From a virus: a stretch of 32,755 nucleotides of DNA. Shown here in pieces: positions 7,817-27,008 of this stretch. Made by a program: the position numbers and the translations under genes. Positions within the stretch are counted from its first letter, which is position 1; each line of letters starts with the position of its first letter. The DNA is taken from positions 1 to 32,755 of the IMG/VR virus record IMGVR_UViG_3300002519_002597; one strand, written 5' to 3'. The notes beneath the pieces are model-generated. The model saw only the letters and a program-made list of their open reading frames with translations, did not search any database and was not told the origin of the DNA.

Positions 7817-8555
7817 CTCTTGTATAGATGAGTTTGTATATGGGTCTTGTGAAAGACTTTCGCCAGAAGCTCCTGTTCCTGTTTTAAAAATGTCTCGGAT
7901 CACATTTATGCCCGGGATGGCTGGCAATGTCACAGAAAATGTCACAGCATTCACAAAAAATGTTGAGCTTATGTGCCAGTTTGAAGAAATAAAGAAAACA
8001 AGATATGTTGATTCACGAAGCAACCAGCACATTATGAGATTTGATATTGAGCCTAGTGACATAAAGCCAGCTTATTTGTCTACGTCTAAAATTTCTCGTG
8101 ATATTAGAAATGGCAAGTTTGATCTTGTTATTATATCTGATTATGACAAGGGCTTTTTAAATAGAAGACAGGTTATATCTTTGACTTCTCGTTTAGCTGA
8201 TGGAATGAAATTATATGTTGATACAAAAAAGAAAGATGTCGGCTGTTATCAAAATTCATTTATTAAACTTAATGAAAGAGAATCTATGGTGAGCGGAGAT
8301 ACTTTGCACGATACAAGTTCTTTAATAACTACTCTGGGTCCCAATGGTTCACGATATGAAGAGAATAACTATCCTTCAAAGAAGGTTGATGTATTTGACG
8401 TTTCTGGAGCAGGCGATACATTTTTAGCAACATTTGCTATATTTCATGTAATTACAAAAGATATTCCAGGTGCAATAAGTTTTGCGAATAAGTGCTCTTC
8501 AATTGTTGTACAAAAGCAAGGAACTTATGCAATTAAGAGAGACGATTTATCATGA
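7728..8555 (+). CDS. rfaE1: D-glycero-beta-D-manno-heptose 7-phosphate kinase (RfaE domain I)
   Basis: This PfkB/ribokinase-fold protein corresponds to the N-terminal domain of HldE. It phosphorylates heptose 7-phosphate at C1. The signature is VLVIGDSCIDEF followed by RLSPEAPVPVLK, where SPEAPVPV is diagnostic of the family. The ATP/catalytic motif near the C-terminus is DVSGAGDTFLATFA, with the catalytic Asp in GAGD. Length is about 275, compared with 310-330 for the family, so some central segments are reduced. The start is GTG 7728 (or TTG 7725), with AAGGAAG at 7714-7720 upstream. This gives an N-terminal helix SLRELEVIQQAGS before the first strand, as in many homologues. It makes an unusually long overlap of about 89 bases with the previous gene. 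The alternative is a start at about 7803, without a clear ribosome-binding site. Confidence 0.87.
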   Translation: MQNTQDSYFSLRELEVIQQAGSLKVLVIGDSCIDEFVYGSCERLSPEAPVPVLKMSRITFMPGMAGNVTENVTAFTKNVELMCQFEEIKKTRYVDSRSNQHIMRFDIEPSDIKPAYLSTSKISRDIRNGKFDLVIISDYDKGFLNRRQVISLTSRLADGMKLYVDTKKKDVGCYQNSFIKLNERESMVSGDTLHDTSSLITTLGPNGSRYEENNYPSKKVDVFDVSGAGDTFLATFAIFHVITKDIPGAISFANKCSSIVVQKQGTYAIKRDDLS

Positions 8556-9211: not shown

Positions 9212-10837
9212 ATGAAAATAGCAGGCATATGGTCTGGTCATGATTGCTCTTATTGTATTCTTGACAACGGAAGGCCAGTTGTTCATGATGAATATGAGAG
9301 ATTTTTAAGAGAGAAAGAGCCTGCAGGAGATTCAGTTCAGTTTTTACTTGAGAATTATGATTACTCTGATGATATAAAACATGCAGCTACTTGCTTTCCA
9401 GAGAAAAAACTTACTGGTCACAAAGAGTCTCTAGACGTTCTTACAAATATAATTGATAAAAATGGTGGAAATTTATTTTTTCTAGGCCATCATCAAGCTC
9501 ACGCAGCAAATGTATTTTTTTCAAGTAACCTTGATAAATCTCTTATTATAACTTTAGACGGCGGCGGGATAGAGCAAGAGGGAAGGACAACTGCAGCAAC
9601 AATTTGGGCAGGTGAAGGGAATAAAATATCTCCTCTACATATATTTGATTTTTACGATTTCAATATTGGCGGTGTGTGGACAAGAGCAACTAGATATATT
9701 TTTAACATGCAATCTGGTCACCCTCTCGGTCATCAGGCAGGAACTGTTATGGCCCTTGCAGCATTTGGAGATCCTGAAAGGTTTCATGAAGATTTTTTTA
9801 AAATGATGACAGTTGATAATCATCTTGCATATCACAAACCACCTGGTCAAAAAAATGGAGCAAATATAGGGGAGGATCCTGAACATCCATATCTAAACAA
9901 GTACAGAATTCTTGCAAGTGAGAGTGAAGAGAATAGATTTGATTTAGCAGCAGGTTTACAAAGTGCAACTGAGTTAAGATTTAAAAATCTTTTAAGGGAT
10001 ATATTTTCTCAACTACCTGACATTAAAAATCTGTGCATGGCTGGCGGAGTCGCACTTAACTCTGTGATGACTGGAAAGATAAAGACGTGGTTTCCTCAAA
10101 TTGAAAATATATACATACCACCAGCAACACACGACGGGGGATTGACAATTGGAGCAGCACAATACGTGTGGCATCACGTCTTAGACAACCCCAGAATAGT
10201 GTGGAAAGATAATTTTACTCCTTATCTTGGAAGGACATATTCTAGAGAAGATGTAGAAAAAGCTCTAAGCTTAAGGTCTGATGAGATTGTATTCAGTGAA
10301 TCATCTGATGACGACATTATATTATCTTTGTTAAATCAGGAGATAGTCTCTGTATTTGGCGGAGGATCAGAGTCTGGAAAAAGAGCTTTAGGGAATAGAA
10401 GCATTCTTGCTGATCCGAGAAGTTCAACAATGAAAGATACAATAAACGAGAAGGTCAAGCATAGACAGTGGTTTAGACCGTTCGCACCATCAATTTTACG
10501 AGAAGAAGTTGAGAATTGGTTCGTAGAAGATATCGATAGTCCCTATATGTCCTTTGTTCTTAAGTTTAACGAAGATAAAGCTGGGAAGGTACCTGCTGTG
10601 GTTCATTATGATGGCTCTGCGCGTCTCCAGACGGTATCCAAGAATGATAATGATTGGTACCATGGGTTGCTTAAGAAGTGGCACCAGAAGTCATCTGTCC
10701 CAATCCTGCTTAACACCAGTTTTAATGATAGAGAGCCTATTTGTGAAACTCCAGATCATGCAATTGATTGTTTTTTGAGAACAAATATAGACAAACTTTA
10801 CTTCTATGATTACGGTATTTCTGTGAGTAAAAGATGA
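9212..10837 (+). CDS. O-carbamoyltransferase, NodU/CmcH/TobZ family
   Basis: This is a full-length carbamoyltransferase of 541 residues. It would use carbamoyl phosphate and ATP to place a carbamoyl group on a sugar hydroxyl via carbamoyl-AMP. The N-terminal Kae1-like domain has the metal-binding HHQAHA at residues 93-98, TLDGGG at about 114-119, and later SGHPLGHQAG and AGGVALNS. The YrdC-like C-terminal part carries SGKRALGNRSILADPR, FRPFAPS and PILLNTSFN, all standard for the family. A clear AAGGAGA ribosome-binding site precedes the ATG. Its neighbours (cupin, GT4, methyltransferase) suggest that the target is a sugar of the surface glycan. In bacteria these enzymes act on Nod factors, antibiotics and O-antigen sugars. 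Confidence 0.93.
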   Translation: MKIAGIWSGHDCSYCILDNGRPVVHDEYERFLREKEPAGDSVQFLLENYDYSDDIKHAATCFPEKKLTGHKESLDVLTNIIDKNGGNLFFLGHHQAHAANVFFSSNLDKSLIITLDGGGIEQEGRTTAATIWAGEGNKISPLHIFDFYDFNIGGVWTRATRYIFNMQSGHPLGHQAGTVMALAAFGDPERFHEDFFKMMTVDNHLAYHKPPGQKNGANIGEDPEHPYLNKYRILASESEENRFDLAAGLQSATELRFKNLLRDIFSQLPDIKNLCMAGGVALNSVMTGKIKTWFPQIENIYIPPATHDGGLTIGAAQYVWHHVLDNPRIVWKDNFTPYLGRTYSREDVEKALSLRSDEIVFSESSDDDIILSLLNQEIVSVFGGGSESGKRALGNRSILADPRSSTMKDTINEKVKHRQWFRPFAPSILREEVENWFVEDIDSPYMSFVLKFNEDKAGKVPAVVHYDGSARLQTVSKNDNDWYHGLLKKWHQKSSVPILLNTSFNDREPICETPDHAIDCFLRTNIDKLYFYDYGISVSKR

Positions 10838-12619: not shown

Positions 12620-13765
12620 ATGAAAGATGAAATATTGTTCGTTTCAACAATTCATAGAATGTCAGAGAGAGTTATTCCTGTAATTAAAAAATTACAGGAA
12701 AATTTTAACGTTAAAATATTGAATACTGGTCAATCTTCATTTAATACAGAATATGACGCAAGCCTTAGATATAAAAAATATGTAGAATCTAATTTTAAAA
12801 ATAGTTCTATTTTTAATACACCAAAAATCTCATATAAGGGCGACGGTCGCTCTGTAAAAACTATTAAAGACATAGCAGAAGCAGCTAATAGTCTTATTAA
12901 TAATAAAACCGCATGTGTAATATTAGACGATTCCAGATTTCAGGCATTTCCTTCTTGCCTATACAGCACATCAAAGGATAGCGGATCTGTTGTATTTGCA
13001 AATTCACACGGGAACATGCCAACAAATAATATGCCAGTATACTATGGATTTAAAGGCAGAAAGTTTTATGATTACATATTTGTTCTGGGCGATTGCGAAA
13101 GAGATCACATAAGAGATTTTGGTTTTGATAAAAACTTGGCTATTCCAGCAGGAATACCTGAAAATGATGACTTGTCTCTATTTGAGAGATCTAATGATTA
13201 TATTCTTGTAATTCCAAATTTTATCCTGCAAAGAGAGTTAGGAGGTTATAAATTTGATCAATGTAAAGCTTCTTTATTTTTCAGCTCAGAGGTGATAGGT
13301 AAAATGAAACTATTAGATCTTCAACAAAAACTTGGTAAAAAAATAATTTTCAAATTAAAACATAGAATGTCGTCTCCGATAAATGAGGAGACTGACGTTC
13401 TCAGAGAAAGAATTCCAAAAGGATTAGATTACGAGATTATTCATCACGTTGATTGTGAACAGTCTTTAATAGCAGGAGCTTCGTGTGTGTTATCATATGG
13501 CTCTACTATGTCATTTAAACCGATACAGATGAGAATACCTACTGTTGTGTATAGAGAGCTAGGAAATGTAGGAAATTTTATAGAGTATAAAGGATTGATT
13601 TCAATTGATGATTCATATAAGTTTATATTTGATAAAAACTTTATGGAAAAAGAAGGAAATAGATTTTTAACAAAGACGCTTAAGGGAGGCTGCGATTTTA
13701 CATCTTCTGATATTTATCTTAAGTCTATCTATAGAAGAATAGGAAGAGAGGATTTAGTAGAATGA
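12620..13765 (+). CDS. Putative GT-B-like glycan synthesis protein
   Basis: The protein has 381 residues and I do not firmly recognise its family. The N-terminus EILFVSTIHRMSERVIPVIKKL has the look of a first Rossmann strand and helix of a GT-B enzyme. The segment IFVLGDCERDHIRDFGF near residue 155 resembles the inter-domain part of CDP-glycerol or UDP-GlcNAc-epimerase-like GT-B proteins, followed by IPAGIPEND. The segment CEQSLIAGASCVLSYGSTMS near residue 285, then IPTVVYRE, resembles the donor-binding end of poly-glycerolphosphate transferases and sugar epimerases, where a Ser/Thr-rich loop binds phosphate. The gene follows the largest gap in the first half and overlaps the radical SAM gene by ATGA. 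A transferase in the glycan pathway is likely but not shown. Confidence 0.65.
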   Translation: MKDEILFVSTIHRMSERVIPVIKKLQENFNVKILNTGQSSFNTEYDASLRYKKYVESNFKNSSIFNTPKISYKGDGRSVKTIKDIAEAANSLINNKTACVILDDSRFQAFPSCLYSTSKDSGSVVFANSHGNMPTNNMPVYYGFKGRKFYDYIFVLGDCERDHIRDFGFDKNLAIPAGIPENDDLSLFERSNDYILVIPNFILQRELGGYKFDQCKASLFFSSEVIGKMKLLDLQQKLGKKIIFKLKHRMSSPINEETDVLRERIPKGLDYEIIHHVDCEQSLIAGASCVLSYGSTMSFKPIQMRIPTVVYRELGNVGNFIEYKGLISIDDSYKFIFDKNFMEKEGNRFLTKTLKGGCDFTSSDIYLKSIYRRIGREDLVE

Positions 13766-15261
13766 GTGATGTTAAAAAAAGAATATGTCTAATTACACCT
13801 CCGTCTCCCTTTCTATTAGATGAGCGTGTTTTTATGCATATTGGCATATTGAAGATAGCTTCACTTCTTGAGAAAAAGGGATTTAACGTAGACATGCTTG
13901 ATTTAAGTGGTGTAGAGAACTATCTAGATGTTCTCGATGATTATTTAAAAATTAATAATCATGCTGATGTAGTTGGAATAACAGCTACAACTCCCCAGGT
14001 TCCATATGCAGTTGAAATTAGTAAATTTTTAAAGGGAAGAGTATCCAAGGTTATTTTAGGAGGACCTCACGTGACATTGATGCATTCAGCATCAAAGAGA
14101 GAGATAAAGAGAAACTTTCTAGGAAGTGATAGAGCGTTTAGTGATGTTGAGAGGCTAAAAGAGTATTTTGATACAATAGTTTGCGGAGATGGTGAATATG
14201 CAATTCTTGAAGCAATTAATACTAATAAAAAAGTTGTTGATGCAGATGATAGAAAGTCTCCCTATTTTCTCACAGATGAAGATTTTTCTACCCTTCCAAT
14301 GCCTGCCAGGCATCTTATAGATATGGATTCATATCACTATACGATTGATGGTGTTAAAGCAACTAGTCTAATAGCACAGCTAGGATGTCCCTTTAGGTGC
14401 ACCTTTTGTAGCGGAAGAAATTCTCCGTTTTTGAGAAAAATAAGAACAAGATCGTCAGAGTCTGTTGTTAATGAGATAGAGCATCTATATCTCAGATACG
14501 GGATCAAAGGATTCATGTTTTATGATGATGAGCTTAATGTCAATAAAAGTATGGTTCAGTTAATGAATAAAATTACAGATCTTCAAAACAAGCACGGTGT
14601 CGAGTTCATGCTAAGGGGATTTGTCAAGGCTGAGCTTTTTAATGATGAACAGGCTGCAGCAATGTATAGGGCTGGCTTTAGATGGCTTTTAACGGGATTT
14701 GAATCTGGAGATGAAAGAATATTAAGAAATATTAAAAAGATGGCTAAAAAGGAAGACAACACAAGGGCAGTCAGCATAGCAAAGAGAAATGGCTTAAAGG
14801 TAAAAGCACTGATGTCAATTGGTCACGCCGGGGAGAGCTTTGAGAGTGTTGAAAATACAAAGCAGTGGTTATTAGATACAGAGCCAGAAGAGTTTGATTG
14901 CACAATTATTACAACATATCCAGGATCTCCGTATTTTGACGAAGCAGTAAAGGATGGTGATCACTATGTGTATACAGACACGAAAAATGGTGATAGGTTA
15001 TATCAAGCATCTTTAGACTATCTTGTAGATCAGGATTACTATAAGGGTGATCCTGATGGAGGATATACATCTTATGTTTGGACAGATAGTATGAGTGCAA
15101 AAGATTTGGTTGATTCTAGAAATGATCTTGAAAAAGAAGTTCGAGAATCACTCAACATATCATTCAATCAATCGAGACCTGGCATAAAACACGAACATTC
15201 AATGGGAATGGGAAATATTACAATTCCAGATTTTATACTTAAAAGAGTATCTGGCAAGTAA
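13762..15261 (+). CDS. B12-binding-domain radical SAM enzyme
   Basis: The protein has 499 residues. The N-terminal part (about 1-160) has the cobalamin-binding domain fold: LITPPSPFL, LKIASLLEKKGF, VVGITATTPQVPYA, VILGGPHVT and VCGDGEYAILEA. The radical SAM core starts near residue 205 with QLGCPFRCTFCSG, which is the CX3CX2C cluster, followed by FYDDELNVN and LLTGFESGDERIL. It belongs to the broad B12 radical SAM group, which includes C-methylases, ring-contraction enzymes and sugar-modifying enzymes. The reaction cannot be told from the sequence. Some members methylate unactivated carbon, which would fit modification of a sugar. A cluster of polysaccharide genes is a common setting for them. 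Confidence 0.88.
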   Translation: MSDVKKRICLITPPSPFLLDERVFMHIGILKIASLLEKKGFNVDMLDLSGVENYLDVLDDYLKINNHADVVGITATTPQVPYAVEISKFLKGRVSKVILGGPHVTLMHSASKREIKRNFLGSDRAFSDVERLKEYFDTIVCGDGEYAILEAINTNKKVVDADDRKSPYFLTDEDFSTLPMPARHLIDMDSYHYTIDGVKATSLIAQLGCPFRCTFCSGRNSPFLRKIRTRSSESVVNEIEHLYLRYGIKGFMFYDDELNVNKSMVQLMNKITDLQNKHGVEFMLRGFVKAELFNDEQAAAMYRAGFRWLLTGFESGDERILRNIKKMAKKEDNTRAVSIAKRNGLKVKALMSIGHAGESFESVENTKQWLLDTEPEEFDCTIITTYPGSPYFDEAVKDGDHYVYTDTKNGDRLYQASLDYLVDQDYYKGDPDGGYTSYVWTDSMSAKDLVDSRNDLEKEVRESLNISFNQSRPGIKHEHSMGMGNITIPDFILKRVSGK

Positions 15262-17082: not shown

Positions 17083-17109
17083 CTTTGCATGATTGTAAAT
17101 CATGCAAAG
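17083..17109 (+). repeat. Perfect 12-bp inverted repeat over the start codon of the aminotransferase gene
   Basis: The left arm CTTTGCATGATT (17083-17094) is followed by a 3-base loop GTA and the exact reverse complement AATCATGCAAAG (17098-17109). The ATG at 17102 lies inside the right arm. There is no T-tract after the stem, so a simple intrinsic terminator is unlikely. As RNA it would form a tight hairpin that hides the start codon. As DNA it could be an operator for a dimeric regulator. Confidence 0.75.
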
Positions 17110-18370
17110 AGAATATTACTCACATAAGATAAAGACAGTGAAAAATAGACTATCAGAAAAGGCCAATCAGTATAGTAGAAAAACATCTCCGGTAAAAGAG
17201 ATTATGATGTACGCTAATCATAATCTTCTTAAAGAGTATGGTATAAAAATAGATGATTTTATTTCTTTTGCGGGCGGATGGGTAAATCATCTATCTCCCG
17301 TAGAGCTTAAAGAATCATATAGGGAAATAATATATAAAAAATTTCATGAATGCGGTGCATATTCTGGAACAATGGGTGATGATAATTTTAAAAATGCTGT
17401 TATCACGTTCAATGATTACATTTATGGTGGTGATATAAATGATTTGACACCAGATCAAATTTGTGTAGGGGTTGGGTCAACACAGCTATTTTGTGACTTA
17501 TTAGACGTTTTGCTGGATCCTAGTGATACAGTTTTGTTGCTAGATCCTACGTATTGCAACTACCCAACACAAATTGAAATGAAATTTCCAACAGTAAAAA
17601 TTGATAGGTATTCTGTGCTCAATTCAGAGACGTGGGAATATAATGCAGACTCAGATGATTTTGCAAATTACATTCGGCTTACTAAACCTAAAGTGATTAT
17701 TCTTGTATCACCTGACAATCCAACATCGCAAATTTTATCTGATGATTTTGTTAACAAAGCGTTAGAAGCAGCTCAAGAAGTTGGTTCATTTATTGTAATG
17801 GATTTTGCCTATAAGGAGCTCGTATTCGATCAGGAGTATCCTGATTATTATTCGTGGCCACCAAATAATAATTTTATATCTCTAAGATCAAATTCAAAAT
17901 GGTGCAGAGGCTTGGGTAGAAGATTAGGATGGGTTGAAGCACCTAGCTTTGTTATAAAGGCAATGGAAGCTATACAAAGCTCATCAATTCTGTGTCCTGA
18001 TATGTTACATCAATTTGCCTTCACAAGCTATGTCAATAACATCGATTCAGATAGTCTTAATAAATACATTCAAGATGTAACAGGCGGATATAAGCTTGCA
18101 AGCAACGCTGTTGTAAATTTTATTAAAGAGCATCTTGAGTACCCGACACTATCTCCAAAGGGCGGGCTGTATGTCTGCGTTAATGTTGGCGAGCCAGGTC
18201 CTCAGTTTGTTGAAAGAATATTAAGAGAAACGGGTGTATTGTTTGTGCCAGGGTGGGGATTTGGTAATAGTATGAAAAATGCTGTGAGGGTTTCATACGG
18301 ACCCCTTTATCAAAATCATGAGAAAATTTATGAAGGTCTCACGAGAGTTAAGGAAGCATTACGTGGATAG
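17102..18370 (+). CDS. PLP-dependent aminotransferase, class I/II fold
   Basis: This is an aspartate aminotransferase-fold protein of 422 residues that would exchange amino and keto groups using PLP. Motifs in order are KTSPVKEIM near residue 29, ISFAGGWVN near residue 54, a VGVGSTQLFCDLL segment near residue 124 (PLP phosphate-binding), VSPDNPTSQ near residue 203 with the conserved N of the PDNPT motif, VMDFAYKEL near residue 233 (Asp and Tyr), and SLRSNSKWCRGLGRRLGW near residue 261, where the Lys of SNSK should form the Schiff base. AVRVSYG near the end provides the carboxylate-binding Arg. No ribosome-binding site precedes ATG 17102, which is inside a hairpin. GTG 17138 is an alternative start that keeps all motifs. 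It may supply the amino sugar or keto acid used by the next genes (inference). Confidence 0.87.
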   Translation: MQREYYSHKIKTVKNRLSEKANQYSRKTSPVKEIMMYANHNLLKEYGIKIDDFISFAGGWVNHLSPVELKESYREIIYKKFHECGAYSGTMGDDNFKNAVITFNDYIYGGDINDLTPDQICVGVGSTQLFCDLLDVLLDPSDTVLLLDPTYCNYPTQIEMKFPTVKIDRYSVLNSETWEYNADSDDFANYIRLTKPKVIILVSPDNPTSQILSDDFVNKALEAAQEVGSFIVMDFAYKELVFDQEYPDYYSWPPNNNFISLRSNSKWCRGLGRRLGWVEAPSFVIKAMEAIQSSSILCPDMLHQFAFTSYVNNIDSDSLNKYIQDVTGGYKLASNAVVNFIKEHLEYPTLSPKGGLYVCVNVGEPGPQFVERILRETGVLFVPGWGFGNSMKNAVRVSYGPLYQNHEKIYEGLTRVKEALRG

Positions 18371-19535
18371 AAAGAATAAAGTTCTTATTACTAGAAAGAT
18401 ATCTAATGTAGCTGAAAATATTTTGTGTGATGATTTTAATTTGGTAAAATCATCACACAATTCACCTTTATCAATGATAAAATTGCGTAATGCTCTATTT
18501 GACTATGACGCAATTTTATCAACTGTTTGTGATAAATTTGATGATACACTTTTATCATCTATCGATAGAAGAGTTGAGGTAATATCAAATTACGCTGTTG
18601 GTCTTGACAACGTTGACATCAAATCTGCTAAAAAAAACAAGATATTTGTTTATAATACACCTGGTGTTGTTACTGATAGCACAGCAGACATGGTTATGGC
18701 TTTAATATTATCTTCTGCAAGAAACATTAGAGATGCACAAGATTTCATCAAGGATGACAAATGGGTCGCGTGGGATCCGGAGATATTTGTCGGATCAGAA
18801 ATGAGAGGAAAAACTCTCGGAATTATTGGATTTGGTAGAATAGGTCAGGCTGTTGCAACTCGAGCACTTTCGTTTGGTTTAAAGATAATTTATTATAATA
18901 GAAGTGAAAAAGATTTTCAAAGAGCTGATCGTTGTGAAGATTTAAATGATCTTCTTCTGTCTTCTGACATTGTTAGTATTCACTTACCTTTAACAGAAAA
19001 GACAAGACATTTTATTGATATTGAACAATTTAAAATGATGAAGAGGATTCCATATTTTATCAATACAGCAAGGGGAGATGTTGTCTCAAGTGTCGCACTA
19101 GATCTTGCATTGAAGAATGGATATATCTCTGCGGCTGCTCTTGACGTCGTTGAGAGTGAGCCAATTGAAAAAGATCACAAGCTTCTTGGGCACAAAAACT
19201 GTATCATAGTCCCTCATATCGGAACTGCGACCAAAGAGTGTAGGGAAAACATGGCAAAGGTAGCTGCAACGAATATTGTTCTTCACTATGATATTAGAAA
19301 AAGAGTAGAAAAAGTATTCAAGGAAGCAATGCAACAGGATTTTTCTGTTGATTCAAACATGTACAATACTGGCTTGTGGGATTCGCTAAAGCATCTTGTA
19401 CTTCTTTCAGACCTTGAGAAAGAATTTGATATTAATTTTGAACATCGTGATGCCAGCAAGATGGTTGATGGTTACGAAATTATCAACGGAGTGTTCAAGC
19501 ATGTATTCAAGCGTTGGCAATCTTCTTCAGAGTAG
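18363..19535 (+). CDS. D-2-hydroxyacid dehydrogenase fused to a C-terminal acyl carrier protein domain
   Basis: The protein has about 390 residues and two parts. The first, roughly 1-312, is a complete D-isomer 2-hydroxyacid dehydrogenase: GIIGFGRIGQAVA near residue 155 for NAD(P) binding, NTARGD near residue 235 with the catalytic Arg, ALDVVESEP near residue 262 with the Glu, and VPHIGTAT near residue 284 with the His. The last 75 residues look like an acyl carrier protein. TGLWDSLKHLVLL carries the D-S-L site, with the Ser codon at 19383-19385 for phosphopantetheine, followed by LEKEFDINF and VDGYEII, as in ACP/PCP helices II-III. No start codon precedes the ACP part, so it is a real fusion. 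I chose GTG 18363 because AAGGAAG lies 6 bases upstream. It overlaps the ligase gene. I do not know this fusion from a described system. Confidence 0.85.
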   Translation: MDRKNKVLITRKISNVAENILCDDFNLVKSSHNSPLSMIKLRNALFDYDAILSTVCDKFDDTLLSSIDRRVEVISNYAVGLDNVDIKSAKKNKIFVYNTPGVVTDSTADMVMALILSSARNIRDAQDFIKDDKWVAWDPEIFVGSEMRGKTLGIIGFGRIGQAVATRALSFGLKIIYYNRSEKDFQRADRCEDLNDLLLSSDIVSIHLPLTEKTRHFIDIEQFKMMKRIPYFINTARGDVVSSVALDLALKNGYISAAALDVVESEPIEKDHKLLGHKNCIIVPHIGTATKECRENMAKVAATNIVLHYDIRKRVEKVFKEAMQQDFSVDSNMYNTGLWDSLKHLVLLSDLEKEFDINFEHRDASKMVDGYEIINGVFKHVFKRWQSSSE

Positions 19536-20874
19536 GGTAGAAGAGCATCCTGACACAGTCTTTATAGTCTGTAACGAAGAAAAATATACATATCAAAAAT
19601 TTTATAATTTATGCTCTAGGGTGGCATCCTATATAAGAAGTGACTTAAATGCTACCCAGGGTGACACTATAAGTATTTGTTTTAAAAATGACATAAATTT
19701 TTTGACATCGTACTTTGCGTGTCTTATATCTGGAATAAAAGTAGTGACAATCAATCCCGATCTGTCGCAAAGAGAGATAAATTATATTGTACAAAATAGT
19801 GAGTCAAAATTCTTGCTAAGTTTAGATCATGACTATGATTCATTTACTAGTGAAATAGATATAGCAGAAGTTAAAAGAGATGATGATGCTGTTATAATAT
19901 ACACTTCTGGAACAACTGGAGATCCAAAAGGTGTCGTTTTAACACATGAAAATCTCCTGAGTGATGCTCAGGCACTAGCTAGCTGGTTTCAGTTTGATAA
20001 GAATACTGTCACCATGTGCTCACTACCATTATTTCACAATAACGGACAGATCACAACTCTCTTAGCTCCACTATTTGCTGGTTGTAAAACTGTGATATTG
20101 AATCCTAAAACTTCTATATTTGGATTTTGGGATTACATAAGTGAATATGGCGTAACCTTTACAAGTGTGATGCCCACTATGCTTTCTATGCTTATGTCGC
20201 TTGGCAAGACAAGAAGAGACAATACATTAAAAGTGATTCTTTGCGGAGGACAACCGCTAAAGAGAAATGTTCAGGATAGCTTTGAAAGTAAATATGGTGT
20301 TAAGATATACGAAGGATACGGTTTGACAGAGACCACTTCTTTCTCATGTATAAATGATTATCCCGTATCATTAAAAAATGGCTCAATTGGAAAGCCGCTT
20401 CCCTGTAATGAGATGACGATAATAGATGGGGAAATTTGTATAAGAGGAAAAAATGTGACAAGGGGCTACCATAACATGCCTGATAAAAATAGGCATGCCT
20501 TTGATAAAGACGGATGGTTTCACAGTGGTGATTTTGGAGAGATGGATGATGATGGATATTTTTATTTTAAGGAGAGGAGAGACTTTTTAATAATAAAGGG
20601 CGGTGAAAACATATACCCAGCAGAGATAGAAAATGTAATACTGGGAAACGAGAACGTCTCTGAGTGTGCTGTTATAGGAATTGAAGACTCTCTTCTTGGT
20701 CAAACCATATGCGCAATAGTGAATACAAAAAACGATAACGAAAACATTGTAGAGTATTGCAAAGGGAAAATATCAAATTATAAACTGCCAAGCAAGGTGA
20801 TTTATGTCGATGAGATACCAAAGGGACCCACAAATAAAATCTTATATAAAAGGCTAATGAGTCAATATGGATAA
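19501..20874 (+). CDS. AMP-dependent acyl ligase (acyl-CoA/ACP synthetase)
   Basis: This is an ANL-superfamily enzyme of 457 residues that would activate a carboxylic acid as acyl-AMP and pass it to a thiol. Core motifs in order are YTSGTTGDPKGVVLTHE near residue 134 (A3 phosphate loop), GYGLTETTS near residue 272 (A5), GWFHSGDFGEMDDDGYFYF near residue 338 (A7), KERRDFLIIKGGENIYPAE near residue 357 (A8), and PKGPTNKILYKRL near residue 440, with the A10 Lys. I chose ATG 19501, which gives the usual N-terminus (NLLQSRVEEHPDTVF) and has GGAG about 10 bases upstream. It overlaps the dehydrogenase-ACP gene by 35 bases. It is a little shorter than typical but nothing essential is missing. The neighbouring ACP domain is the natural acceptor (inference). 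Confidence 0.92.
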   Translation: MYSSVGNLLQSRVEEHPDTVFIVCNEEKYTYQKFYNLCSRVASYIRSDLNATQGDTISICFKNDINFLTSYFACLISGIKVVTINPDLSQREINYIVQNSESKFLLSLDHDYDSFTSEIDIAEVKRDDDAVIIYTSGTTGDPKGVVLTHENLLSDAQALASWFQFDKNTVTMCSLPLFHNNGQITTLLAPLFAGCKTVILNPKTSIFGFWDYISEYGVTFTSVMPTMLSMLMSLGKTRRDNTLKVILCGGQPLKRNVQDSFESKYGVKIYEGYGLTETTSFSCINDYPVSLKNGSIGKPLPCNEMTIIDGEICIRGKNVTRGYHNMPDKNRHAFDKDGWFHSGDFGEMDDDGYFYFKERRDFLIIKGGENIYPAEIENVILGNENVSECAVIGIEDSLLGQTICAIVNTKNDNENIVEYCKGKISNYKLPSKVIYVDEIPKGPTNKILYKRLMSQYG

Positions 20875-21667
20875 GATATTATACAAATATTTTGACACAG
20901 ATGAGTCATGTGAAAGAAATATTTACAGTTCAGACTTTTCTAAGGCATTTAACGAGCTAGGCATAAAGGATGATGATACACTATTCATACATTCAGATAT
21001 TCTGTCGTTTGGAAAAATAGTAGATATTAGCACAATAATGCAGTCGCTGATGTGTGAAATAATATCTTCATCTCCAAAAGGCGACATACTGATGCCTGCC
21101 TACACATATAGCTTTACAAAAAATGAGATTTATGATGTTGAAAAAACACCATCGACAGTTGGATCTTTGACAAATTACTTTAGAAACATGAAAGAGACAT
21201 ATAGAACTCTTGATCCGATTTTCTCAGTATCTGTTTTAGGAGATAAAAAATATCTTGAGTGTGATACTAGAAATTGCTTTGGTGAAAAATCTGTGTATTC
21301 AGAGATGCTTAAGTCTAGAGGAAAGATCGTTATGCTTGGGTCAAAGTTTGATAAATCTCTAACTTTTTTACATTTTATTGAGCAACAATTTGGAGTCTAT
21401 TATAGAAAATTAAAGAAGTTTATTGGTGATAAAAAAGTAAATGATAATCTTTTTGAGGACTATTGTTACTTTTACGCTAGGGAGCCAATGGATATAATTA
21501 ATGTAAATCTTTTAAACCTCGAGAGATACGTGAGTGATAAAAATATAATAAAGACTGTGAGAGTAGGTCTGGGTAGTATTGCTATAATAGATGCACATTT
21601 ACTATATGATCATTGCATGCTTCTTCTTAGAAGTGATGAGAATTTTTTTTTAGAGATGAAGGTTTAA
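20867..21667 (+). CDS. AAC(3)-family N-acyltransferase
   Basis: The protein has 266 residues and resembles the antibiotic N3-acetyltransferase family (PF02522 type), which moves acyl groups from CoA or carrier thioesters to amino groups. The N-terminus has FIHSDILSFGKI, and then DILMPAYTYSFTKNE near residue 77, which is the family's L-M-P-x-Y/F-x-x-S/T-x-x pattern. STVGSLTNYFR near residue 98 corresponds to the G-x-L/ST-x-x-FR stretch, and DPIFSVSVLG follows at about 120. GKIVMLGSKFDKSLTFLHFIEQ contains the LG-x-x-x-x-x-x-T-x-x-H-x-E catalytic-site segment, though the last residues differ. It overlaps the acyl ligase by 8 bases. In glycan clusters members of this family acylate amino sugars, so this is probably the acyl-transfer partner of the ACP-ligase pair (inference). 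Conservation after residue 190 is weak. Confidence 0.78.
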   Translation: MDKILYKYFDTDESCERNIYSSDFSKAFNELGIKDDDTLFIHSDILSFGKIVDISTIMQSLMCEIISSSPKGDILMPAYTYSFTKNEIYDVEKTPSTVGSLTNYFRNMKETYRTLDPIFSVSVLGDKKYLECDTRNCFGEKSVYSEMLKSRGKIVMLGSKFDKSLTFLHFIEQQFGVYYRKLKKFIGDKKVNDNLFEDYCYFYAREPMDIINVNLLNLERYVSDKNIIKTVRVGLGSIAIIDAHLLYDHCMLLLRSDENFFLEMKV

Positions 21668-21668
21668 A

Positions 21669-22610
21669 ATGAGTGAGAAAATGAGTAAAAAATACTTTCT
21701 AGAAGATTTACACGAATATGAGGGTGAATGGGGCGGTCACTATATTAATGCGAGGAAAAATAAGCACGGACAATTTTTTAAAACTGCTGAAGATTGGGAA
21801 AAATATCGACCGGGAGATGGTAACACGCCTCTTATGATTCACCTGTTTAATAATATTGGTATAGAGTTTAAATATTGTCTTGATATAGGTGCATATTCTA
21901 CGATGGACTCTAATGTTTATCCAATAATGAAAAGATTTGGCACAGAAGGATTGTTAATTGATGGGAACAATAAACACAGAGACCCTGTCGTTGTACAGGC
22001 GTGGATTCAGCAATCTAATCTACACCACATACTTTCTGAAAATGGTTGTCCTAAAAAATTAGATTTTCTCTCTGTAGACATAGACAATAATGACTATTGG
22101 ATTCTTAAGACTCTTTTATCTGAAGGATACATATCAAATGTTCTAATATTTGAATTTAATCCTGCTTTTAGTATTGATGAGTCGTATGTTAAAACTTATC
22201 ATCACGCAGCTAGAAAGAATGATAAACACACTGGCTGCTCTTCGTGTTATGGGTCAAGCCTAAGAGCTGTAACTAATTTAGCATATGAGTTTGGCTATAG
22301 ATTGATTCACACGATTCCGGGTGAAAATAACGCAGTCTTTATTCAAAAAAGATTTGACACTAAGGATATGTGTGCTAATAAGCTCAAGATGCTTTCTAGG
22401 TTACACCCAGAGCCCTGGATTGAAAAGCACAAGATTAAAATGAATAAAGAAAGATACGGCATCTCTACAGAAGTACGTCACGTAAAAGGAAACATGTGTC
22501 AATATTTAAATTCTGAAGAAATATCACTTTTAAAAAAGAAGATGATAAGCTCTTTTGTTGAAGTTGACAGCTTATCTTACAAGCTAGCAGAATCAACTAT
22601 TCCAAAATAG
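21669..22610 (+). CDS. FkbM-like methyltransferase
   Basis: The protein has 313 residues. The core is a class I methyltransferase resembling the FkbM family: YCLDIGAYSTMDSN near residue 66 for SAM binding, EGLLIDGNN near residue 95 for the ribose-binding acidic strand, and LDFLSVDIDNNDYWILKTLL near residue 132, which closely follows the FkbM pattern of D-FLSVD-x-[DE]-x-x-D-x-x-IL. LIFEFNP follows. A cysteine-rich TGCSSCYGSS near residue 192 is unusual. The C-terminal 80 residues are basic and unrecognised. AAGG precedes the ATG by about 8 bases, and the gene starts only one base after the acyltransferase stop. O-methylation of a sugar or the linked acid is likely (inference). Confidence 0.78.
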   Translation: MSEKMSKKYFLEDLHEYEGEWGGHYINARKNKHGQFFKTAEDWEKYRPGDGNTPLMIHLFNNIGIEFKYCLDIGAYSTMDSNVYPIMKRFGTEGLLIDGNNKHRDPVVVQAWIQQSNLHHILSENGCPKKLDFLSVDIDNNDYWILKTLLSEGYISNVLIFEFNPAFSIDESYVKTYHHAARKNDKHTGCSSCYGSSLRAVTNLAYEFGYRLIHTIPGENNAVFIQKRFDTKDMCANKLKMLSRLHPEPWIEKHKIKMNKERYGISTEVRHVKGNMCQYLNSEEISLLKKKMISSFVEVDSLSYKLAESTIPK

Positions 22611-22621
22611 AGCTTGATATC

Positions 22622-22650
22622 TAGTACAAATTAAAAATCTTGAATATAGT
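22622..22650 (+). promoter_or_regulatory. Possible promoter (TAGTAC, 17 bases, TATAGT)
   Basis: The 62-base gap before the next gene has TAGTAC (22622-22627) and TATAGT (22645-22650) separated by 17 bases. The first differs by one base from TTGTAC in the stronger promoter at 23947, with the same spacer. Transcription would begin near 22657, about 16 bases before the ATG. The match to a standard -35 is poor. Confidence 0.35.
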
Positions 22651-22663
22651 TTAATATATTCAA
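22640..22663 (+). repeat. 9-bp AT-rich inverted repeat in an intergenic gap
   Basis: TTGAATATA (22640-22648) and TATATTCAA (22655-22663) are exact reverse complements around a 6-base spacer. The stem has only one G:C pair-type position per arm, so RNA stability is low. It overlaps the possible -10 box and could equally be an operator or chance in AT-rich DNA. Confidence 0.5.
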
Positions 22664-22672
22664 AAGTTAGCG

Positions 22673-23941
22673 ATGATCAGTCTTTGTAAAAAATTATATA
22701 AAGTCAATAGAAGCATAACTGGAGAAGGCGTAAGAGAATCGCTTGAGATAATAAAAAATCATGACGTTCCTTTAAATATATTCAGCGTAAAGTCAGGAAC
22801 AAGAGTTTTTGACTGGACTATCCCACCAGAGTGGAATATTAAAGATGCTTATGTGATTGATCTTGGATCTGGAAGAAAAGTTATTGATTTTAATAATCAT
22901 AATCTCCATGTTATGAGCTATAGTATTCCAATAGATAAAGAGATCACCTTTAAGGATCTAGATGAGAATCTATACTACATAGAGTCTATGCCAGACGCTA
23001 TACCGTATACTACGTCATACTATCAGAGACGTTGGGGATTTTGCCTATCTTATAATGACTATAAAAAACTAGATAAAAATTCAAGATATCGAGTCGTGAT
23101 TGACTCTAGCTTAGAAAGCGGTTGCTTAAATTATGGTGAAGTGATAATACCTGGAGTATCTGAAAAAGAGATCATGTTTTCAACATATATTTGTCATCCA
23201 CAGATGTGCAATAATGAGCTTTCTGGCCCAGCTGTGTGGTCAGAGATAATAAAATACGTATTAAGTCTTCAGAATAGAAAATACACTTATAGATTTGTAA
23301 TAGCACCTGAGACAATTGGGTCGATCACTTACATCTCTAGAAATATTGAAACGCTTAAGAGAAATGTAATAGCTGCTTTTAATCTAACTTGTGCGGGTGA
23401 TGAGAGATGTTTTTCATACGTGCCCTCCAGACAAGGAGACACATATGCTGATAAGGTGGCAAAGATAGTTCTTGATACAGAGATATTAAAATATAAAGAA
23501 TATACGTGGTTATCAAGAGGGTCAGATGAAAGACAGTACTGTGCTCCGGGGGTTGATATTCCCATGTGCTCTGTTATGAGAAGCAAGTATGGAGAATATC
23601 CCGAATATCACACATCTCTAGATAATTTTGATCTAATAAGTGAAAAAGGGCTTCGGGAAACACTGAGTGCACATAAAAGCATGATAGACATTATTGAAAA
23701 AAACTGTAATCCTGTTTCTAAAGTTTTATGTGAGCCTAATCTTGGAATGAGAGGATTATATCCTACTTCAAATGATAGACGACCTCTTAAGAAACAAACT
23801 AGATTAATAAAGAATTTTTTATCTTATTGTGATTCTAGTTATGATCTAATAGATCTATCTCGAATACTTGATGTTGATTTTAAAACTTGTTATGATATTT
23901 TTCACATTTTAGAAGAAAGTGAATTAGTAGAAGAATTTTGA
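22673..23941 (+). CDS. Aminopeptidase-like polysaccharide-cluster protein (DUF4910/DUF2172 type)
   Basis: The protein has 422 residues and matches the family of aminopeptidase-like proteins found in polysaccharide gene clusters. The N-terminal half reads VNRSITGEGVRESL, FDWTIPPEWNI and YSIPIDKEI, the signature of that family. The M28-like metallopeptidase core follows: FSTYICHPQMCNNELSGP near residue 167 with metal-binding His and Asn/Glu region, APETIGSITYI near residue 210, LTCAGDERCFSYVPSRQ near residue 240, RGSDERQYCAPGVDIPM near residue 284, and YPEYHTSLDN near residue 305 with the last His. The end is a winged-helix-like tail. Homologues often sit beside NeuB-like genes, as here. They may hydrolyse an amide in a sugar intermediate, but the reaction is not established to my knowledge. 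Confidence 0.85.
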   Translation: MISLCKKLYKVNRSITGEGVRESLEIIKNHDVPLNIFSVKSGTRVFDWTIPPEWNIKDAYVIDLGSGRKVIDFNNHNLHVMSYSIPIDKEITFKDLDENLYYIESMPDAIPYTTSYYQRRWGFCLSYNDYKKLDKNSRYRVVIDSSLESGCLNYGEVIIPGVSEKEIMFSTYICHPQMCNNELSGPAVWSEIIKYVLSLQNRKYTYRFVIAPETIGSITYISRNIETLKRNVIAAFNLTCAGDERCFSYVPSRQGDTYADKVAKIVLDTEILKYKEYTWLSRGSDERQYCAPGVDIPMCSVMRSKYGEYPEYHTSLDNFDLISEKGLRETLSAHKSMIDIIEKNCNPVSKVLCEPNLGMRGLYPTSNDRRPLKKQTRLIKNFLSYCDSSYDLIDLSRILDVDFKTCYDIFHILEESELVEEF

Positions 23942-23946
23942 TTTTC

Positions 23947-23975
23947 TTGTACACACTTAAAAAATAAAATATAAT
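23947..23975 (+). promoter_or_regulatory. Sigma70-like promoter (TTGTAC, 17 bases, TATAAT)
   Basis: TTGTAC lies at 23947-23952 and a perfect TATAAT at 23970-23975, with the optimal 17-base spacer. Transcription should start near 23982. This makes the ATG at 23988 too close for a ribosome-binding site, and supports GTG 24000, which has GGAG at 23990-23993. It is the best promoter candidate in the window and would restart expression at the NeuA/NeuB-like fusion. Confidence 0.6.
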
Positions 23976-23999
23976 AACAATTATAAAATGGAGACACTA

Positions 24000-25604
24000 G
24001 TGAGCATTGTAGCGGTAATACCAGCAAAAGAGAAGTCTGCTCGTCTAAAGAATAAAAATCTTAAAAAAATCGGACCAAAAACACTGATTGAGATATCAGT
24101 AGATTATGCTAAAAAGTCAAAAAAAATTACTGAGATATTTGTTTCAACTGATTCACAGGAAATTAAAAATCTCGCTAAGGACATGGGAGTTAAATGCATC
24201 TTAAGAGGAAAAGATCTCTCTGGAGACGCTCCTCTATTTGAAGTATACAGGCATGCATTTAATCATATCTCTAAAAATAATACTGTTGACTACGTAGTAG
24301 GTCTTCAGCCTGATAATCCAGATAGAAATATTGATATTGATTATTCAATTGAATATGCAATAAACAAGCAGGCAGATGATCTTTTTACAGTAGGCAGGGA
24401 TGGTCAAAAAAATGGCTCATTGAGAATTTTAAGCTCTAAAGCTTTGACATCAAATCTAATAGCTTCGTCATCAATTCTTGATGAGTGCACAAATATTCAC
24501 TCTATTGATGATCTTAACATAGCAAGATATAGTTTTGAAAAAAAGACTTATATAAAAGTTGACGATAGACGAATTGGAAATAGTGAAAAGGTTTTTGTTA
24601 TAGCAGAGGCAGCATGTAATCATATGTGTGATATGATAATTGCTAAAAAGATGATCGATGAAGCTGCAAAAGCAGGAGCTGATGCAATCAAATTTCAGAC
24701 ATACAAAGCAGAAAGACTAGCTACATCAAAGTCTAATGCATATTGGGGATCTGAAAAGTCAACCCAGCTAGAATATTATAAAAAACTCGACAAGTTTGGA
24801 AAAGAAGAATACGAGGAGCTCTTTAGCTATGCAAAAAAGAAAGGGATAGTTGGATTCTCTACTCCTTTTGATATTGAAAGTGCAAGCATGTTGAATAGTT
24901 TGGGAATGCCTTTATTTAAACTAGCATCTTGTGAGATTAATAATTTAGATCTTTTAAGACACGTTGCAAGATTTAAAAAGCCAATAATACTATCGACTGG
25001 AGCGTCAACTGTTGACGAGATTGATGCTGCAATTAGTGTGATATTTGGCCAGGATAATTTTGATTTAATTTTACTAGCTTGTACTCTAAGCTATCCAACA
25101 GAAAATAACAATGCCAATCTAAATAGAATAAAAACTTTAAAACAGAGATATCCAAATATTACCATAGGGCTATCAGATCACACAAGACCTGATGAAAATA
25201 TGATAATTCCATCTCTAGCAGTTGCAATGGGTGCCAGAGTTATTGAAAAACACTACACACTAGATAGAGGGTGGACAGGGTCAGGTCACTTTTTCTCAAT
25301 TCAGCCTGAAGATCTAAAGAAAATGATTGCTAATATTGGCTTAGCCACGACTGTCTTGGGAACACCAAATCTTGAGGTGATGCCAGAAGAGATGAAAGCA
25401 TTTGTCGGAGCTAGAAAAAGTGTTGTAGCTATGTGTGATATAAAAAGCGGAATGGTTATAACAAAGGATATGCTAGCTCTTAAAAGACCTGGAATTGGAA
25501 TACCTTCAGAAAAGATTGATACAGTTGTTGGAAGAATGTCTAGAATAGATATATTAAGAGATACAATCTTAAGTGATGACATGTTTTATAGCGAGGCTAA
25601 GTAA
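24000..25604 (+). CDS. Fused NeuA-like cytidylyltransferase and NeuB-like nonulosonate synthase
   Basis: This bifunctional protein has about 534 residues. Residues 1-185 look like a CMP-sialate synthetase-type nucleotidyltransferase: VAVIPAKEKSARLKNKNLK near the N-terminus is the R/K-x-x-S-x-x-x-x-x-KN loop, IFVSTDSQEI follows, and the domain closes with IDDLNIARYSF, a typical end. From about 195 a NeuB/SpsE-type synthase begins: FVIAEAACNHMCD, AGADAIKFQTYKAE, GFSTPFDIESA, ILSTGAST, IEKHYTLDRGWTGSGH. The usual GPDH in the last motif is GSGH here. The tail (ARKSVVAMCDIKSGM onward) is the SAF domain. The pathway step is condensation of a six-carbon amino sugar with phosphoenolpyruvate, then CMP activation. 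Start GTG 24000 follows GGAG. The two activities are usually separate genes. Confidence 0.88.
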   Translation: MSIVAVIPAKEKSARLKNKNLKKIGPKTLIEISVDYAKKSKKITEIFVSTDSQEIKNLAKDMGVKCILRGKDLSGDAPLFEVYRHAFNHISKNNTVDYVVGLQPDNPDRNIDIDYSIEYAINKQADDLFTVGRDGQKNGSLRILSSKALTSNLIASSSILDECTNIHSIDDLNIARYSFEKKTYIKVDDRRIGNSEKVFVIAEAACNHMCDMIIAKKMIDEAAKAGADAIKFQTYKAERLATSKSNAYWGSEKSTQLEYYKKLDKFGKEEYEELFSYAKKKGIVGFSTPFDIESASMLNSLGMPLFKLASCEINNLDLLRHVARFKKPIILSTGASTVDEIDAAISVIFGQDNFDLILLACTLSYPTENNNANLNRIKTLKQRYPNITIGLSDHTRPDENMIIPSLAVAMGARVIEKHYTLDRGWTGSGHFFSIQPEDLKKMIANIGLATTVLGTPNLEVMPEEMKAFVGARKSVVAMCDIKSGMVITKDMLALKRPGIGIPSEKIDTVVGRMSRIDILRDTILSDDMFYSEAK

Positions 25605-27008
25605 ATGAAAGTATTATTAATTGCTGCTCCAAGACCAAGTACTAATGAAACAGCTTTGCATATGGGTGATGGACGACCTCCAATGGGCCTAGCGTATGTG
25701 AGCGCCTATCTTGAAAAATTTGGTCATGAGACAAAGATAGTTGACTTATATCACTTTGGTAGCGATCACGAGAGTGAAAAGAGAAGTCAGAAGGTTACAG
25801 CCACTATTTGTCATATTATTAAACATGATAACAGTGTAGATGTTTTTAAAGAAATTGAAGAGTATAAGCCAGATTTTATTGGGATGTACATTGGGACAAT
25901 TTCATATTATAGAGGAACAGCTCTAATAAAGGAAATTAGAAGAAGATATCCACATATTCCAACAATGGCAGGAGGGCCTCACGCTATTGAGCTTCCAGAT
26001 ACTTTAATTAGATATTTTGATTATGTTGTGTGCGGAGAGGGAGAGATAGCGTCACTAGATATCGTTGAAGGAAGAATAAAGGATAAGGGGGTTGTTAAAC
26101 GTCCAAACATAGATGATATCAATGAGCTTCCGTTTCCAGACTTTAGACATTTTATTGATAAGCCGTATAACTGGGAACTGGAGATGTTTGATAATGATAT
26201 CAAGCCTGTATTAACTCTTAACTCTACGAGGGGCTGTCCATTTTCGTGTATGTTCTGCGGTGTTGCAAACACTAGGTTTAGAGGAATAAGCTCTCCAAAT
26301 CTAGTAGGATATATAAGTGATCTTGTTGAAAAATATGATACTCAAGGAATCTATTTTAGGGAGGATAACTTTACAGTTCAGCCAAAGAGAGTTGAGCAAT
26401 TTTGTGATATTCTCATCTCTGAAAATATGAACATCTCTTGGGCAGCTGAAAGTAGAGTTAAAAATCTTTCACCAAAGCTTATTGAAAAAATGGCTAGGGC
26501 TGGATGTGTTGGACTGTATATAGGTGTTGAGAGCGGAAGTGAGAGAATGCTCTCATACATAAGAAAGGGTGAAAATCGAAATGACTTTTTAGAAAAATTT
26601 CCAATTATTCATGCTAGCGGAATCACAACATACACGACTTGGATATATGGTTTACCGAGTGAGACAGAAGAAGATAGAAAAGAAAATGATAAATTTATTG
26701 AGATGTTAAATCCAACAACAGTGGATACATTTGTCTATTTGGGTGTCCCTGGAAGTGATTTCTATAAGATTTTGGATCACAGCAAGCTATATGAATTTAA
26801 AGAGACGAGTGGAATAATTTATCCTCCTGGACATCTTTCAATGGCGAAAAGAGTCTATGGTCAAAATGATCCTAGAGTTGAATATATGGAAAATCTCTAT
26901 GAAGAGAATAACATTAATTTAAAAAAGGCAGACCCATATTATATTCCTCAAACAGTATATGATAAGCTTAAAACAACAAAAATAAGAAAACAGCTTAGTG
27001 AAAGATAG
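25605..27008 (+). CDS. B12-binding-domain radical SAM enzyme
   Basis: The protein has 467 residues and the same architecture as the radical SAM protein at 13762-15261 but a different sequence. The N-terminus VLLIAAPRPSTNETALHMG and MGLAYVSAYLEKFGHE, IGMYIGTISYYRG, MAGGPHAIELPD and VVCGEGEIASLDI form the cobalamin-binding domain. The radical SAM cluster is NSTRGCPFSCMFCGVAN near residue 206 (CX3CX2C). DNFTVQPKRV and IGVESGSERML follow, with the E-S-G-S stretch typical of the MiaB/BchE-like subgroup. GAGG lies 9 bases before the ATG and the start directly abuts the previous stop. The substrate is unknown. A carbon methylation or rearrangement of a sugar or sugar-linked acid is possible (inference). 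Confidence 0.88.
   Translation: MKVLLIAAPRPSTNETALHMGDGRPPMGLAYVSAYLEKFGHETKIVDLYHFGSDHESEKRSQKVTATICHIIKHDNSVDVFKEIEEYKPDFIGMYIGTISYYRGTALIKEIRRRYPHIPTMAGGPHAIELPDTLIRYFDYVVCGEGEIASLDIVEGRIKDKGVVKRPNIDDINELPFPDFRHFIDKPYNWELEMFDNDIKPVLTLNSTRGCPFSCMFCGVANTRFRGISSPNLVGYISDLVEKYDTQGIYFREDNFTVQPKRVEQFCDILISENMNISWAAESRVKNLSPKLIEKMARAGCVGLYIGVESGSERMLSYIRKGENRNDFLEKFPIIHASGITTYTTWIYGLPSETEEDRKENDKFIEMLNPTTVDTFVYLGVPGSDFYKILDHSKLYEFKETSGIIYPPGHLSMAKRVYGQNDPRVEYMENLYEENNINLKKADPYYIPQTVYDKLKTTKIRKQLSER

Follow-up and report, generated by a model that had tools for sequence, protein, structure and literature searches.

A D-2-hydroxyacid dehydrogenase fused to a predicted acyl carrier domain within a putative sugar acylation cassette of an uncultured tailed phage

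Introduction

The closest described counterparts of the gene set reported here are bacterial. In the flagellin locus of Campylobacter jejuni, the aminopeptidase-like protein Cj1295 is needed for pseudaminic acid to bear a dimethylglyceric acid group, and its gene is adjoined by an N-acetyltransferase gene (PMC3068675); the same locus holds an FkbH-domain gene, Cj1302 (PMC7099621). A structure paper from 2014 proposed, from gene neighbourhoods, that DUF4910 proteins act in (trans)acylation or deacylation; the neighbourhood of Clostridium CA_C2195 holds DUF4910, aminosugar N-acetyltransferases, an acyl carrier protein (ACP) and the NeuB-like protein SpsE (PMC4000134). In Aeromonas group II flagellar islands, an ACP, a 3-oxoacyl-ACP reductase and an AMP-dependent synthetase are encoded among pse genes (PMC7874193). 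Among DUF4910-associated cassettes, Cj1295 is the only case for which the acyl group on the sugar is known chemically, as far as the relevant passages of PMC3068675 go. In phages, genes for the epimerisation or O-acetylation of nonulosonates of the host have also been described (PMC12053666 and PMC6586298). Here we describe a glycan island of an uncultured tailed phage in which a D-2-hydroxyacid dehydrogenase (2-HADH) is fused to a predicted acyl carrier domain, next to genes for an acyl ligase and an AAC(3)-type N-acyltransferase (NAT). The stretch of DNA analysed (the window) comprises bases 1-32755 of the 46,381-base IMG/VR virus record IMGVR_UViG_3300002519_002597.

The C. jejuni locus resembles the window in combining an N-acetyltransferase gene with Cj1295, which we take to be a member of the DUF2172/DUF4910 family. 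It differs in serving the flagellin glycan of a bacterium and in carrying an FkbH-domain gene, and the published passages on the locus report no 2-HADH-ACP fusion. In the Clostridium set, unlike the window, the ligase is an ATP-grasp aminoacyl ligase, and neither an ANL (AMP-forming) ligase nor a 2-HADH is listed (PMC4000134). The Aeromonas islands share the combination of ACP, reductase and AMP-dependent synthetase with the window, whereas their genes are separate and their reductase belongs to another family (PMC7874193). An original prediction, made from the window sequence without database searches, had proposed an acyl-transfer module around the fusion, and the present analysis followed it up.

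Results

The fusion gene is a single continuous open frame (Table 1), with no frameshift between its two parts of the kind that the original prediction had warned of. It runs from a GTG start with AAGGA upstream to a stop at 19535, and an alternative in-frame ATG lies at 18318. Its dehydrogenase part is complete, as had been claimed: both Pfam domains are present (2-Hacid_dh_C, PF02826, 1.5e-57; 2-Hacid_dh, PF00389, 1.3e-21), and R237, E266 and H285, which are catalytic, are kept together with the GxGxxG nucleotide loop, as expected of a D-2-hydroxyacid dehydrogenase. The best PDB match is the glyoxylate reductase 6bii (1.6e-68), and the named proteins that match best are glyoxylate reductases and glycerate dehydrogenases, enzymes acting on glyoxylate, hydroxypyruvate and glycerate; the NCBIfam glyoxylate reductase model matches at 2.3e-89 with 300 bits, below its equivalog cut-off of 455. 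The residues NRS after beta-2 suggest NADP(H) as the cofactor. AlphaFold2 modelled the dehydrogenase confidently (pLDDT about 90).

Generic models matched residues ~310-390 weakly (DltC, 3.5e-6; ACP models, ~1e-3), and the best PDB match of this part was a D-alanyl carrier protein (E 0.003). A carrier profile was built from eight carriers of related bacterial clusters, with the window left out. This profile scored 38.2 bits (E 2.4e-12) on the phage domain compared with 9.4 for the top of 3,000 shuffles, so the similarity to carriers is far beyond chance despite the weak generic models. The result agrees with the C-terminal ACP-like domain that had been proposed, and the serine of its D-S-L site, encoded exactly where it had been placed (Table 1), is kept in 8/8 of the cognate carriers, the conservation on which the prediction had staked the domain. 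The flanking hydrophobic pattern is also kept. Judged on these sequence features, the domain is very probably a true carrier. In the full AlphaFold2 model, one long helix (residues 291-325) enters the carrier and residues 327-373 have pLDDT <50; a BFVD search with the fusion model returned low-TM matches only. The carrier domain found no match in named phages. No phosphopantetheinyl transferase was found in the 46-kb record, and the carrier would therefore be primed by a host enzyme.

The pairing of the two parts appears to be rare. Two alignment-based 2-HADH scans of IMG/VR gave 25 and 20 loci, in which no dehydrogenase continued into a carrier, and among 69 loci with the dehydrogenase frame (some of them overlapping copies) the carrier profile matched in the window only (0/68 others). 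Among the matches listed from 297 Bacteroidota genomes (256 with a match) none extends into the carrier part, and no fusion occurred among the matches listed from named phages and plasmids. The fusion as a single query against IMG/VR and GTDB contigs, a weak test because of its exact 8-mer seeds, gave no usable relative. Three sets of candidates were rejected: a Bacteroidota match reaching residue 364 is a SerA-type protein of 539 aa; L026, matched to residue 370, has a tail like the ACT-type tail of neighbouring SerA-like matches and no carrier match; and two Bacteroidota open frames of 390-394 aa (G040 and G148) are upstream extensions. With no second example among the loci and genomes scanned, the earlier description of the fusion as unusual stands; since the searches are samples, they support rarity and not uniqueness.

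There are just two in-frame ATGs close to the join. The first, M297 (ATG 19251), is conserved in the dehydrogenase family and has AGGG upstream, and the second, M323, lies inside helix 1 of the carrier. A possible internal start at M297 might also yield a free 94-aa carrier.

The genes for the aminotransferase, the fusion, the ligase and the AAC(3)-type protein overlap successively by 8, 35 and 8 nt, which very likely makes them one translationally coupled unit, and each of the four enzymes keeps its catalytic motifs. The aminotransferase carries the motif of the pyridoxal phosphate (PLP)-binding lysine, SNSKW, and its GntC/VioD-type NCBIfam matches fall below cut-off. The better start of the ligase, an ATG at 19501 with GGAG upstream, lies inside the carrier frame. 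Motifs A3, A5, A7, A8 and A10 (Lys) were all found in the ligase, matching the full motif set attributed to it, and its closest relatives are acyl-CoA, MenE and oxalyl-CoA ligases (NCBIfam PRK06187/MenE-type; no equivalog cut-off reached). The phage ligase is of the acyl-acid type, in contrast to the amino-acid/DltA type in two of the bacterial clusters described below (L113 and L132), and this fits a hydroxy acid replacing an amino acid, given the upstream transaminase and dehydrogenase. The assignment of the next protein to the AAC(3) family was likewise correct. PF02522 scored 86 bits against a cut-off of 25, and the T-x-x-H-x-x-E catalytic motif of Antibiotic_NAT enzymes (PMC8956665), whose characterised members use acetyl-CoA, is present as TFLHFIE at 166. 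An identity as an aminoglycoside-resistance gene was rejected (NCBIfam AAC_3 equivalog, 42.5 vs 270 bits).

The 313-aa protein that follows the NAT gave no match in Pfam, PHROG or PDB sequences and could O-methylate the acyl group. By eye, its motifs are methyltransferase-like. Further downstream are a DUF2172/DUF4910 protein and a cytidylyltransferase-NeuB-SAF fusion, such that an AAC(3)-type NAT, an ACP, a loading enzyme, DUF4910 and NeuB occur in one neighbourhood (18363-25604). The domain order of the NeuB fusion is also found in Bacteroidota L113 (2870-4615). In its cytidylyltransferase part, only about the first 120 of the 217 CTP_transf_3 profile positions were matched.

Table 1 Features of the window and of three comparison loci (L036, L038 and L068)
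Feature	Position	Strand	Remarks
PLP aminotransferase (class I/II)	17102..18370	+	Pfam Aminotran_1_2 1e-25
D-2-hydroxyacid dehydrogenase with C-terminal acyl carrier domain, 390 aa	18363..19535	+	continuous frame, Pfam, profile
Dehydrogenase part, residues 1-310, glyoxylate/hydroxypyruvate reductase-like	18363..19292	+	
Acyl-carrier-like domain, residues 311-390	19293..19532	+	
Ser341 codon in D-S-L, predicted phosphopantetheine site	19383..19385	+	
ANL (AMP-forming) acyl ligase, 457 aa, acyl-CoA-ligase/MenE-like	19501..20874	+	AMP-binding 1.3e-79
AAC(3)/Antibiotic_NAT-family N-acyltransferase, 266 aa	20867..21667	+	PF02522 3.1e-24
Protein without assigned family, 313 aa	21669..22610	+	1 nt past NAT gene
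DUF2172/DUF4910/HTH_47 protein, family of CA_C2195	22673..23941	+	DUF4910 1.1e-94
Cytidylyltransferase-NeuB-SAF fusion, nonulosonate synthase with CMP-transferase-like N-part	23988..25604	+	
Two B12-binding radical SAM proteins	13762-15261 and 25605-27008		in island
NodU-like carbamoyltransferase	9212-10837		in island
RfaE-like cytidylyltransferase and PfkB kinase	7397-7816 and 7725-8555		two overlapping frames
MaoC-SDR-ACP triple fusions	L036 8475-9956; L038 8406-9800		adjoin AAC(3)-FkbH fusions
AAC(3)-type domain and DUF2172/DUF4910, one 607-aa frame	L068 7353-9176		

We repeatedly found the combination of an ACP, an ANL ligase (or FkbH), a reductase, an AAC(3)-type transferase and DUF4910 next to nonulosonate genes, both in Bacteroidota and in other bacteria. 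Scanning the surroundings of 15 strong DUF4910 matches in 396 Bacteroidota genomes gave clusters such as L113, L112 and L110. In L113 (G108:C70), a CMP-transferase/NeuB fusion is followed by genes for ANL, ACP, GNAT, AAC(3)-type and DUF4910 proteins; L112 (G245:C79) encodes NeuB, AAC(3), DUF4910, ACP, ANL and a short-chain dehydrogenase/reductase (SDR), and L110 (G220:C174) encodes ACP, GNAT, AAC(3), DUF4910 and NeuB. All three share the ACP, AAC(3)-type NAT, DUF4910 and NeuB with the window, and L112 and L113 also the ANL ligase; unlike in the window, the ACP is free-standing, and in place of the 2-HADH there is an SDR in L112 and no dehydrogenase adjoining the set in L113. Two further clusters (L132 and L137) combine ACP, ANL, SDR and AAC(3). 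Across the 396 genomes, 6/10 AAC(3)-type relatives were near an ACP, four of these six also near an ANL ligase.

Similar associations were found on plasmids, where the AAC(3)-type gene lies near DUF4910 and pse/NeuB genes (L035, L036 and L040) or directly upstream of DUF4910 (L034). In L036 (Sinorhizobium sp. RAC02), an AAC(3)-FkbH fusion is followed by a MaoC-SDR-ACP fusion and then DUF4910, and the Erwinia plasmid L038 has the same pair of fusions. These loci resemble the window in having a reductase with a C-terminal ACP beside an AAC(3)-type NAT (L036 also in DUF4910 and NeuB), but their reductase is MaoC-SDR, and loading is by FkbH/HAD-IIIC fused to the NAT, with no ANL ligase. A Paenibacillus locus (L039) encodes ACP, SDR, AAC(3), ANL, GNAT, a second ACP and a KASIII-like protein.

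In viruses, DUF4910 was found in 17 IMG/VR contigs, seven of which have an AAC(3)-type gene, and in none of the named phages. The contig L068 (IMGVR_UViG_3300028595_000025) has terminase and portal genes and encodes a CMP-transferase, ACP, SDR, ANL ligase and AAC(3)-DUF4910 fusion, in that order; the ACP-SDR-ANL order is also that of Bacteroidota L137. The ACP of L068 was assigned from where it lies, its size and its serine motif, with only a marginal carrier-profile score, and was left out of the alignment with the fusion because it misaligned. L068 thus resembles the window in its phage-borne ACP, reductase, ANL ligase, AAC(3)-type NAT, DUF4910 and CMP-transferase, and differs in that the ACP is unfused, the reductase is an SDR and the AAC(3) domain is fused to DUF4910; it is not recognisably of the same lineage. 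The 607-aa AAC(3)-DUF4910 frame supports a functional link between these two families. The original prediction knew of no described phage system of this kind, a claim to be narrowed to the fusion and to the use of a 2-hydroxyacid dehydrogenase in this role, as comparable sets exist in bacteria (L110, L112, L113 and L036) and, unfused, in phage L068.

Sister phages (L061, L062 and L066) have a downstream block in common with the window. All three keep DUF4910 and a NeuB relative, except that L066 has the CMP-transferase part only. Since these sisters gave no match to the acyl genes in this search, the acyl part is presumably a variable insert in this phage group. A glycosyltransferase, UDP-sugar dehydrogenase and epimerase are common to the window and L055, L058, L059, L061, L062, L063, L065 and L066; glycan genes are swapped between the common ones, and some contigs share PD-(D/E)XK-like and glycosyltransferase genes. 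A plain 2-HADH-like protein is encoded near NeuB in L061, L062, L063 and L065.

The window is mostly a glycan island, with many glycosyltransferases, an epimerase, rfaE-like genes and a UDP-sugar dehydrogenase; the genes from the aminotransferase to the CMP-transferase/NeuB fusion (17102-25604) lie in its middle, all on the + strand. Baseplate wedge proteins of the T4 type are encoded in the remainder of the record (L001); their nearest named relatives belong to Flavobacterium phage immuto and Microcystis phage Mel-JY01. A pelagimyophage home was considered, as the glycan islands are alike in kind, and rejected, the baseplate relatives being Flavobacterium/Microcystis myophages. The NodU-like carbamoyltransferase suggests that the island also serves to carbamoylate a sugar; one relative of it lies near DUF4910 in L120. 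Relatives of the B12-binding radical SAM proteins lie near DUF4910/NeuB in Bacteroidota L118-L120. In the PfkB kinase frame, only the C-terminal part of a kinase was matched.

Discussion

We read the locus as a rearranged copy, carried by a phage, of a bacterial cassette for the acylation of surface sugars; to this explanation, taken whole, we assign a probability of about 0.58. That it is an acyl-transfer module is well supported, as the overlapping genes, the intact motifs and the presence of the same set in bacteria and a second phage agree with what was originally proposed. The new and unusual part is the dehydrogenase-carrier fusion, with a 2-hydroxyacid dehydrogenase as the reductase.

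Conversion of an amino acid to a D-hydroxy acid by a transaminase and then a D-2-hydroxyacid dehydrogenase is a standard route, and dehydrogenases of this family use their catalytic Arg to grip the 2-keto acid by its free carboxylate. In the window, the aminotransferase would convert an amino acid to a 2-keto acid, which the dehydrogenase part would reduce, as the free acid, to a D-2-hydroxy acid; reduction should precede activation, because the catalytic Arg is expected to need the free carboxylate. The ANL ligase would then adenylate the hydroxy acid and load it onto the fused carrier through the 4'-phosphopantetheine on Ser341; from there the AAC(3)-family enzyme would pass the hydroxyacyl group to the amine of an amino sugar. 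The acceptor would most likely be a nonulosonate, or a precursor of one, handled by the NeuB/CMP-transferase fusion with the DUF4910 protein assisting, and the product would enter a glycan on the host surface, with changed receptor properties or a block to superinfection as the probable effect. The leading candidate acid would be D-glycerate, reached from serine through hydroxypyruvate.

What was observed is the domains and motifs of the proteins, the order of the genes and the occurrence of the same gene set elsewhere; we infer from this the substrates, the purpose and the direction in which the acyl group is passed on. By analogy with the bacterial sets, transfer of an acyl group to an amino sugar is probable. 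A 2-hydroxyacyl group is somewhat favoured as the group transferred, glycerate in particular is doubtful, and a nonulosonate or its precursor as acceptor is, on the same analogy, an even call.

Several results weigh against the cassette reading. The Pfam PP-binding model (PF00550) was not reached on the carrier (E 0.028, 15.1 bits vs a gathering threshold of 20.8); in the same test, ACPs of related clusters scored 21.5 and 21.7, near the cut-off, and that of L038 scored 18.3, below it. Modelled alone, the carrier had an ACP-compatible helix order at pLDDT 55, a low-confidence model with no confident PDB match in Foldseek. L061, L062 and L066 gave no ANL, AAC(3) or PP-binding match in this search, and the ligase, NAT and ACP are missing from most other DUF4910 phage records, including sisters with NeuB. 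No gene like pseB, pseC or pseH stood out among the annotated genes of the record, where no family-level search was made, and the host, or sequence that is missing, would then have to supply the amino sugar. Enzyme specificity is not readable from sequence. CoA could be the acceptor of the acyl group, as the ligase resembles acyl-CoA ligases.

The alternative that survives best, while still unlikely, is that the sugar acceptor is an NDP-amino sugar or another glycan component unrelated to nonulosonates, with NeuB serving a separate pathway. This would suit an island rich in glycosyltransferase, rfaE-like, carbamoyltransferase and UDP-sugar dehydrogenase genes, and no NeuB was found within the stretches examined around the AAC(3)/HAD-IIIC genes of Erwinia (L038) or the adenylation/ACP/AAC(3) genes of Solidesulfovibrio (L037). 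However, NeuB stands two genes past the protein at 21669..22610, itself directly after the NAT, and NeuB/pse genes adjoin the AAC(3)/DUF4910 pair in L035, L036, L040, L110, L112 and L113.

An improbable second alternative is that the ligase loads the hydroxy acid onto CoA and that acyl-CoA is what the AAC(3)-type enzyme uses, which would leave the fused carrier vestigial or structural. The nearest relatives of the ligase (acyl-CoA, MenE and oxalyl-CoA ligases), the acetyl-CoA used by characterised Antibiotic_NAT enzymes and the weak generic carrier models are all compatible with it. A vestigial domain would be expected to lose its serine, whereas the D-S-L Ser and the hydrophobic pattern are kept here, and an ACP gene lies near the AAC(3) gene in most related clusters.

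The physical fusion might instead mean that the dehydrogenase, like a ketoreductase, reduces a 2-ketoacyl group tethered in cis on its own carrier; in L036 and L038, the analogous SDR-ACP fusions probably work on ACP thioesters. Such reduction in cis is distinctly improbable, as the Arg of the family (R237 here) binds a free carboxylate, which a thioester lacks. An assembly or sequencing artefact joining two genes is very improbable, since, for all that the fusion comes from one metagenomic contig and no second example was found in the loci scanned, one continuous frame serves both parts with no frame change, helix 1 of the carrier stands where the usual C-terminal tail of the dehydrogenase would be, no in-frame start lies between M297 (last dehydrogenase helix) and M323 (carrier core), and the downstream ligase begins within the carrier frame.

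On the cassette reading, a bolder and rather unlikely extension makes the fusion a self-loading hydroxyacyl donor that arose within a phage lineage. One protein would both produce the hydroxy acid and hold the arm for its activation and its transfer to a surface sugar, and the phage would gain a hydroxyacyl decoration absent from the repertoire of the host. In either form, the fusion offers a compact handle on the roles of the AAC(3)-type transferase and DUF4910 in such clusters. If the reading is true, a carrier-protein-based cassette would extend phage alteration of nonulosonates from epimerisation and O-acetylation to custom N-acyl groups, and would add a new function to the glycan islands of uncultured tailed phages, which have so far mainly yielded glycosyltransferases.

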